Assembly: GCA_019638775.1 (NCBI GenBank)
Contig: JAHBTD010000002.1
Location: 186,001-250,000, forward strand
Origin: Fimbriimonadaceae bacterium
GTDB taxonomy: Bacteria > Armatimonadota > Fimbriimonadia > Fimbriimonadales > Fimbriimonadaceae
DNA: 64,000 nt
Direction of reading: 5' to 3'
The notes beneath the pieces were generated by a model. The model was not told the origin of the DNA. It was given only the letters and a program-made list of their open reading frames with translations, and did not search any database. Numbering within the stretch: position 1 is the first letter of the stretch; every line of letters begins with the position of its first letter. This document shows positions 4,135 to 39,858 of the stretch, piece after piece. The position numbers and the translations under genes are program-made.

Positions 4135-4306
4135 CTCTTGCGAGCCTGACCCTCGGATTATTGCGGGTACATCAGGGTCATTCCACAGAATGCACTGCCG
4201 CCAAGGTGGGTGGGCAGATTTTGCGCATACATAGTATTTTTAGCGATGGTCACGCCTATCCATGACGGAATTCTCATGTTGAGTCTTCACGAATGGGGCG
4301 TCTACG

Positions 4307-4513
4307 ATGATGACATTGTTAGGAGTGATCGGATATATGTGCTTTGCTTATGCCATCTACGTGTGGGCGGTCAAACTTGCGCCCAACGAACAGGAGATCG
4401 TCGGTGTGACCTCGCTTGAAAAAGAAAGAGCGCGAGAAGCCGAACTGATCGACCTCACGCGCTATATCGAATCACGATCTTCCGATGTCGAAGACGTCCG
4501 CCGAGCCGCTTAG
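4307..4513 (+). CDS. Small single-pass membrane protein, hypothetical
   Basis: A 68-residue reading frame with a membrane segment at about 3-22 (TLLGVIGYMCFAYAIYVW) and a charged cytosolic tail (LEKERAREAELIDLTRYIESRSSDVEDVRR). Composition is typical of a real small membrane protein. It converges with lemA and the two overlap by 4 bp at the stop codons. ATG at 4310 is an equally possible start. No family recognised. Confidence 0.5.
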   Translation: MMTLLGVIGYMCFAYAIYVWAVKLAPNEQEIVGVTSLEKERAREAELIDLTRYIESRSSDVEDVRRAA

Positions 4514-38591: not shown

Positions 38592-38745
38592 ATCCTCATC
38601 TGATTTGCGCCCACAGGCCGCCCGGGCGTCCCCACCATTCTACAAAGAAGTCAACTTTTAACCAACCGCGCCGCGCCGGAAGCATCCGCCTTCTGGTAGT
38701 TTTACCGGGGTAGAACAATGAGTCACATGTGGAGAAAGACGCTGT

Positions 38746-38751
38746 TACAAT
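38746..38751 (+). promoter_or_regulatory. -10-like TACAAT for the selenoprotein candidate
   Basis: Ends 6 bp before the ATG at 38758. Confidence 0.5.
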
Positions 38752-38757
38752 AGGAGC

Positions 38758-39858
38758 ATGCTCGCGTCGCTTGCCATTGCTGCCTTTGTGCTCGCCGGTC
38801 CAACTCTCGATGAGCGAATTGCCGAAATCCTCCCAACAAAGCAGGAGGAGAAATGGCTGAGCATCCCTTGGCGAACGAACCTGTACGAAGCTCGCAAAGT
38901 TGCCCAAAGCGAAGGCAAGCCGATCTTCATGTGGATCATGAACGGGCACCCTTTCGGCTGTACGTGAAACAACGGCCTGTGGGACCGTAGGTTCCTCTTC
39001 GCCGACGATTTGATCATCGACCAGCTCAAGAATTTTATTCCCGTCGTGGGCAACACGCACGATTGGCAAACACGCAATCACGACGTTGGGAAATGGTTCA
39101 TGTCCACAGTCGCCAAGGTGAATCCGCGAGCGAATCAGGGACAGACCACCCAAGGTTTCTACGTTATCGGAGCCGATGGATCCGCCTATGTTTACAACAA
39201 CAACCGCAGCGTCGAGCGTGTGCAAGACTTTCTGCAAAGAGGTTTAAAGGCGTTCAAAGCCAGCCCACCGGCAAAAGCAGATATCCCAGATGCGCCAGAT
39301 ATGCAAAGAAAGGCTCCAGCCGGGACAACGATTTTGCGCATCTATTCACGGATAAAACCGGTTCCGATGGGCGCAGACACTGCTAACGAGAACGTCCAAA
39401 GAGACCATTTCTGGCTCTTGCCGCAGGAAGTAGCCGCCTTGTCCACCTCCAACTCAGTGCCCGAGTCGTTGAGTGCGAGATTATGTCGGTTTGTCTTCGT
39501 CGACGCGATCCGTGGTGAGCCGGATTTCTGGTCGGCTGGAGAGATTAAGTCAAAAGAGTTTTCCATAACGAAACTGTCTTCCGGCGAGCTGAAAATCGTC
39601 GGCAAGTTTGCGATGGCTACTGGGAACCAGGCCAGAGGACTTGAGGGAAGTCTCGAAGCGATTGTGCGGGTAAATGGAGAGCGCGTCACCGCGTTCAAAG
39701 GGTTCGTCAATGCCACGGCATGGGGCAAGGGAACATACACCCCCAATCCTCCGAACGGAAAGTTTCCAATAAAGTTCGCGATTGTGATAGCCCCTAACAC
39801 GCCGGATACGGTTTCCCCGCAAGCCGCCTTCTATGGCCCAGAGTACTTGAAGGGTTAA
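38758..39858 (+). CDS. Thioredoxin-like protein, probable selenoprotein (in-frame TGA)
   Basis: Two open segments in the same frame, 38758-38964 and 38968-39858, are separated only by TGA at 38965-38967. Read through, they give one 366-residue secreted protein: signal MLASLAIAAFVLAGP, then a thioredoxin-like domain with EARKVAQSEGKPIFMWIMNG, the active-site region HPFGCT-(TGA)-NNGLWD with TGA at residue 70, IIDQLKNFIPVVGNTHDW and TTQGFYVIGADGSAYVYNN. A C-T-U redox motif at the place where thioredoxin-like proteins carry cysteines strongly suggests selenocysteine. GGGACC (38981-38986) pairs with GGTTCC (38990-38995) around a GTA loop, 13 bases after TGA, as expected for a bacterial SECIS. The C-terminal half is unrecognised. 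A nonsense mutation or sequencing error is the alternative. Confidence 0.75.
38968..38995 (+). promoter_or_regulatory. SECIS-like hairpin after the in-frame TGA
   Basis: A 6-bp stem (one G-U pair) with loop GTA at 38987-38989; loop starts with G and lies about 19 bases after TGA, within the usual bacterial range. Stem is short, so this is tentative. Confidence 0.45.

Follow-up and report, generated by a model that had tools for sequence, protein, structure and literature searches.

A gene with an in-frame TGA codon

The 64,000-nucleotide stretch analysed here, referred to as the window (contig JAHBTD010000002.1 of a Fimbriimonadaceae bacterium, positions 186,001 to 250,000), contains on its forward strand a gene whose reading frame continues past a single internal TGA codon and which, judged from the sequence, very probably encodes a selenoprotein. 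The gene (38758..39858, +) comprises 366 sense codons and ends with TAA. The TGA is codon 70 (38965..38967) and its translated context reads NGHPFGCT-U-NNGLWDRRF, where U stands for selenocysteine (Sec); the product would thus have 366 residues, a mass of roughly 40 kDa and Sec at position 70. An earlier interpretation made without database searches (the sequence-only reading) had described two open segments in the same frame, split by a TGA in the context GHPFGCT-TGA-NNGLWD, and frame, codon and context were all confirmed.

When comparing the window gene with 13 orthologs we found conserved protein sequence on both sides of the TGA, as in bacterial selenoproteins: amino acid identity was 54% before the codon and on average 44% after it. 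Downstream of the TGA, differences at the first, second and third codon positions amounted to 0.46, 0.35 and 0.65, and on either side of the TGA the third position was the most variable, a coding-like pattern. The assignment of codon 70 to Sec draws on this pattern, on the conservation of the codon among relatives and on the predicted structure, in which the residue is located at the N-terminus of a helix (residues 71–80).

Selenocysteine machinery and distribution of the family

The sequence-only reading had made its proposal of a selenoprotein depend on a Sec machinery elsewhere in the genome. All four components are present in the genome of the window (4.3 Mb, 99.9% complete, a draft of 126 contigs): selA (491 bits, cut-off 268), selB (377 bits, cut-off 242), selD (358 bits, cut-off 125) and the selC product tRNA-Sec (70.8 bits, cut-off 47), for which ARAGORN reports a tRNA-SeC with anticodon TCA at the same place. 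The selD gene (L052) is itself of the selenoprotein form, with one TGA in the motif CAGUASK.

A paralog on another contig of the same genome carries a TGA at the same place (NGHPLGCT-U-NNG). We searched this genome together with 150 relatives and obtained matches at E<=1e-3 in 43 of the 151 genomes, 40 of which had at least one match with an internal TGA. From this search 68 loci span the site, two of them re-anchored at the site before counting. The codon is TGA in 64, TGC (Cys) in one (L025), TCC/TCG (Ser) in two (L078, L091) and GAT (Asp) in one (L089). When 291 genomes of the phylum were searched with a profile, 67 gave matches, some of them generic thioredoxins at weak E-values; of 20 further loci from this search, 19 have TGA and one (L133) has Asp. 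Combined, 83/88 loci from many genera have TGA exactly at the site, the rest being one Cys, two Ser and two Asp. In addition, 84,980 named species genomes were searched with two patterns, one spelling Cys at the Sec position. This returned 17 relatives: metagenome-assembled genomes (MAGs) labelled Armatimonadetes, Fimbriimonadaceae or Chthonomonas, one complete genome (CP021423.1), whose ortholog L104 has the TGA, a Cyanobacteria SZAS-4 MAG and a Gemmatimonadaceae MAG. The last contains L108 (TGC, GCTCNNG), which lies outside the 88 loci and is, besides L025, one of only two loci found with Cys in place of Sec, a replacement also seen among homologs of bacterial selenoproteins. At residue 70, where the sequence-only reading had looked for Cys or Sec, homologs therefore have TGA, or Cys in these two cases, with Ser or Asp in four more.

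Presence of the family followed the Sec trait. A selA match over the cut-off was found in 86/151 genomes; 39 of the 86 contain a TGA member, as compared to 1 of the 65 selA-negative genomes (Fisher p = 7e-11, not corrected for kinship). The Ser and Asp forms L078, L091 and L133 are located in genomes without a selA match. All five named genomes tested have selA, including the Cyanobacteria SZAS-4 and Gemmatimonadaceae MAGs.

The family is multi-copy, and its members are found across the phylum to which the window genome belongs. Two genomes contain several copies, with 7 matches in G164 and 6 in G156 (291-genome search, fragments included; L135–L138, L141–L143, L148, L151), GRCUGG-type members among them. 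One copy (L151 / L110) has several frame breaks and extra stops and is either a decayed gene or the product of a poor assembly. The MAG labelled Cyanobacteria SZAS-4 carries a TGA member (L103) along with its selA; horizontal transfer, a binning error or a mislabel may account for this.

A putative selenocysteine insertion sequence

A 6-bp stem with a G-first loop downstream of the TGA had been noticed in the sequence-only reading. This stem is real (38981..38986 pairing with 38990..38995) and is part of a longer hairpin (38973..39004, +) with a minimum free energy (MFE) of -14.2 kcal/mol for the whole hairpin. Its apical loop is GUA (38987..38989), the first base lying 22 bases past the T of the TGA. 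In the model of the bacterial selenocysteine insertion sequence (bSECIS) given in the accessible text of a 2026 review (PMC13188914), the loop has 3–9 nt with a G in its first two bases, the stem 4–16 bp, the distance from UGA to loop is 16–37 nt and the MFE <= -7.5. The hairpin of the window gene agrees with this model, its significance being borderline for the gene and strong for the family.

When the 39 bases past the TGA were compared with synonymous shuffles by plain folding energy, p<=0.05 was reached in just 4/60 cases (mean z -0.53); this measure is uninformative, since the stem is largely dictated by the amino acid sequence. With this result already seen, we adopted a SECIS-constrained score, in which the best model-fitting hairpin of each gene is compared with synonymous-codon shuffles within that gene. 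On this score p<=0.05 was obtained for 36/62 TGA genes (median p 0.037) and for none of four non-TGA homologs; because the genes are related, the 62 do not represent 62 independent tests. Other positions in the same genes gave weaker hairpins (mean -2.7 kcal/mol vs -7.0 kcal/mol at the native site), and the native median was reached by 9% of 2875 control positions. Covariation lends the hairpin modest support: in the close family one pair shows compensatory changes, in 7 cells, which was reached by 0/500 shuffles. One consensus structure for all members was also tried and failed, because the register of the hairpin shifts between subfamilies. A group of distant paralogs with the motif FGDPRGHCUQNG (L077, L079–L085, L087, L088) has a very constant post-TGA hairpin, CCAGRC-AGUUU-GUCUGG, whose stem contains the Arg codons AGA/AGG.

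Predicted structure and active site

A signal peptide was also part of the sequence-only reading. The short hydrophobic N-terminus (38758..38808, +) is present and is likely to act as an export signal, while the charged n-region of a signal peptide is missing. Searched directly against the Pfam and PDB sequence collections, the window protein had no match. An AlphaFold2 model built from 14 sequences has a predicted local distance difference test (pLDDT) score of 87.6 and places Sec70 between a strand (residues 56–61) and the helix 71–80. In this predicted model the protein has the central sheet of the thioredoxin fold, with the active residue at the N-terminus of the helix following a core strand. 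The thioredoxin domain was not among the Foldseek matches listed for the full model and was found in a later structure comparison. For residues 28–170 (38839..39267, +) this gave 3f9u_B (Z 13.3, root mean square deviation (rmsd) 3.6, 129 residues aligned), 1sen (Z 12.8, rmsd 2.7, 121 aligned), AGR2 (Z 12.2, rmsd 2.4, 116 aligned) and DsbD-gamma (Z 10.1, rmsd 3.3, 114 aligned). The thioredoxin-like fold proposed from the sequence is thus backed by structure prediction. The remainder of the protein forms a mixed beta domain (39325..39855, +; model pLDDT 90.8) with the invariant motif D-x-x-RGEPxxW, for which no convincing known fold was found (best Z 5.8, none at E <= 0.001 in Foldseek).

In a profile alignment with 3f9u (weak, E 0.028) Sec70 is aligned with the leading Cys of the CVNC site and Gly73 with the final one. 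The CxxC redox pair of the thioredoxin fold is therefore absent from the window protein, which instead reads U-N-N-G with an extra Cys at position -2. This residue, Cys68 (38959..38961, +), is a candidate partner of Sec. Cys is located at -2 or -1 of Sec in 80/83 TGA loci (61/64 and 19/19 in the two sets), and at neither position in the four Ser/Asp loci. Since both residues are lost together in the Ser/Asp loci, Cys and Sec may work as a pair, although we consider the case for a C-x-Sec redox pair evenly balanced.

Interpretation and alternative explanations

Taken as a whole, the gene very probably encodes a selenoprotein whose UGA is decoded with the help of a SECIS element and which is an exported two-domain thioredoxin-like redox protein of a multi-copy family. 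SelB and Sec-tRNA(UCA) would decode the UGA at codon 70, as suggested by the machinery and the hairpin seen in the sequence, and the hairpin about 22 bases downstream would assist them. The product, presumably exported, would carry Sec70 in its N-terminal thioredoxin domain where a CxxC site has its first Cys, the nucleophile, with Gly73 where the second would be. That the protein is a thioredoxin-fold oxidoreductase using Sec as nucleophile is probable. Cys68, whose counterpart in distant paralogs lies at -1, is near-constant and lost together with Sec, which makes it the likely partner; it could form a selenenylsulfide with Sec. The protein would most likely serve as a thiol/selenol oxidoreductase or a peroxide-reducing enzyme outside the cytoplasm, and the C-terminal domain may bind a substrate or partner.

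Several observations weigh against this interpretation or parts of it. The hairpin of the window gene is borderline even on the SECIS score (p = 0.050); on plain folding energy it does not stand out from synonymous shuffles (p = 0.39), and 18/200 dinucleotide-shuffled versions of its sequence fold equally well. In the paralog group with the motif GVRGRQ a hairpin with p<=0.05 was found in just 1/14 genes, and the VIARR/KTRQF group lacks any pair with changes in both partners, 98% of the cells being paired because the stem hardly varies. One genome with a TGA member (G102, 73% complete) has no selA match, and the Asp form L089 is located in a genome (G005) which does have selA. Finally, three TGA loci lack an adjacent Cys (GTTU, GSTU and GMTU), so that the C-x-U arrangement is not obligatory.

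Among the alternatives, the best placed is a leaky or regulated termination at the UGA: the gene would mostly yield a 69-residue product, Sec would be inserted only when selenium is plentiful and the full-length protein would have little function. Decoding of UGA as Sec is inefficient in bacteria and some family members have a weak hairpin, both of which would fit such a scheme. However, the 296 residues past the TGA are conserved at the level given above and include a confidently predicted domain, and the full-length product is therefore under selection; we consider a leaky stop improbable. Under another alternative, for which nothing specific speaks, TGA would encode one of the standard amino acids (code 4 or 25) or be read through by near-cognate decoding. 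Against this, TGA is an ordinary stop here, as already stated in the sequence-only reading: of the 17 mechanically derived frames in the window that stay open over 400 codons or more it terminates 8, as well as selA and selB of the same genome. Moreover, homologs without TGA have Cys, Ser or Asp and never Trp or Gly, and TGA members track selA, which leaves this explanation hardly any weight. A pseudogene, or a sequencing or assembly error in a once-intact gene, is similarly far-fetched: a lone in-frame stop in a draft of many contigs is often an artefact, but the frame beyond the TGA is still open and under protein-level constraint, and the same TGA recurs in dozens of independent genomes, which excludes the sequencing error that the sequence-only reading had named as a possible refutation. 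In sum, its proposal of a probable selenoprotein with a thioredoxin-like fold was supported on all three points that could have overturned it, namely the machinery, the homologs and the sequencing error. The multi-copy nature of the family, the rarity of Cys replacements and its absence from the catalogues consulted go beyond that reading.

Returning to the selenoprotein interpretation, we tentatively propose a narrower form of it, in which the family is nearly Sec-obligate. Sec would occupy the place of the CxxC nucleophile and pair with a Cys at -1 or -2 in the loop as a C-x-Sec or C-Sec selenenylsulfide, and loss of Sec would lead to Ser or Asp with concomitant loss of the neighbouring Cys rather than to Cys. 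To our knowledge, families with near-universal Sec are uncommon. If the proposal holds, Sec would not be easily swapped for Cys, and the question of why Sec is used and not Cys would become directly testable. The changes from Sec to Ser or Asp with loss of the adjacent Cys represent natural experiments on the function of Sec as compared to Cys.

Relation to known selenoprotein families

No NCBIfam model exceeded its cut-off for the family. The nearest, though remote, is VPGUxxT (NF041382, NF041383), likewise a group of thioredoxin-like selenoproteins, which weakly matches the N-terminal part of the proteins described here. The window protein reached 19.5 bits against a cut-off of 350, and the best member, a distant one (L090), 29.1 bits (E 7e-7) against a cut-off of 275; the cut-off of NF041382 was reached in 0/151 genomes. 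In contrast to VPGUxxT, the window protein has C-T-U-N-N-G, without VPG before Sec and without Thr three residues after it, and among the 10 motif variants of the 64 TGA loci none has VPGU or UxxT.

Domains of the DsbD-gamma / ERp18 / AGR2 type (3f9u, 1sen, 3ph9, 2fwe) share the fold and the place of the active residue. These have a CxxC-type site, CVNC in the case of 3f9u as seen in our alignment. Unlike them, the window protein has Sec at the first position, Gly where the second Cys would stand and a Cys at -2, and it continues into an additional C-terminal domain.

The accessible text of the 2026 review lists VPGUxxT, as hypothetical protein OS_HP5, together with CxU thioredoxin-like selenoproteins such as Sec.1 (PF13192) (PMC13188914). 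The latter also have a Cys two residues before Sec in a thioredoxin-like protein. Unlike Sec.1, the window protein is without any Pfam match, and PF13192 is absent from the family lists of the 35 scanned members. The string 'armatimonad' does not occur in the accessible text of PMC13188914, and the family is not described in the accessible parts of PMC13188914, PMC12013277, PMC4807772, PMC5029168 and PMC9312934. In the portions available of the selenoprotein literature on Armatimonadetes/Armatimonadota, Fimbriimonas, VPGUxxT and OS_HP5 no description of the family was found, which does not demonstrate its absence from print. As the VPGUxxT matches are weak, the NF041382 cut-off was not reached and the review text does not contain the string, we regard the family as new to the sources searched and, on its sequence, as an apparent remote relative of VPGUxxT rather than a member of it.

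If this is correct, a poorly studied phylum contributes a further selenoprotein family, one whose active-site motif is unusual. Its genes are likely to be annotated as truncated or split in databases, and the loci collected here provide material for the missing NCBIfam model.

Gene neighbourhood and promoter

Just one of 15 named loci (L097) has any neighbouring gene in common with the window, namely leuB, so that the gene neighbourhood gives no clue to an operon. Upstream of the gene we noticed a sigma-70-like promoter match (GTCACA-18-TACAAT with TG before the -10 box; 38722..38751, +), a weak one, as 0.7 such matches are expected by chance and 1 was found. The -10-like box TG-TACAAT stops 6 bases upstream of the ATG (within 38722..38760), and the paralog L005 has TAGGAT at a similar distance from its start (about 4305–4325, minus strand). 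It is possible that both genes are transcribed as leaderless mRNAs.
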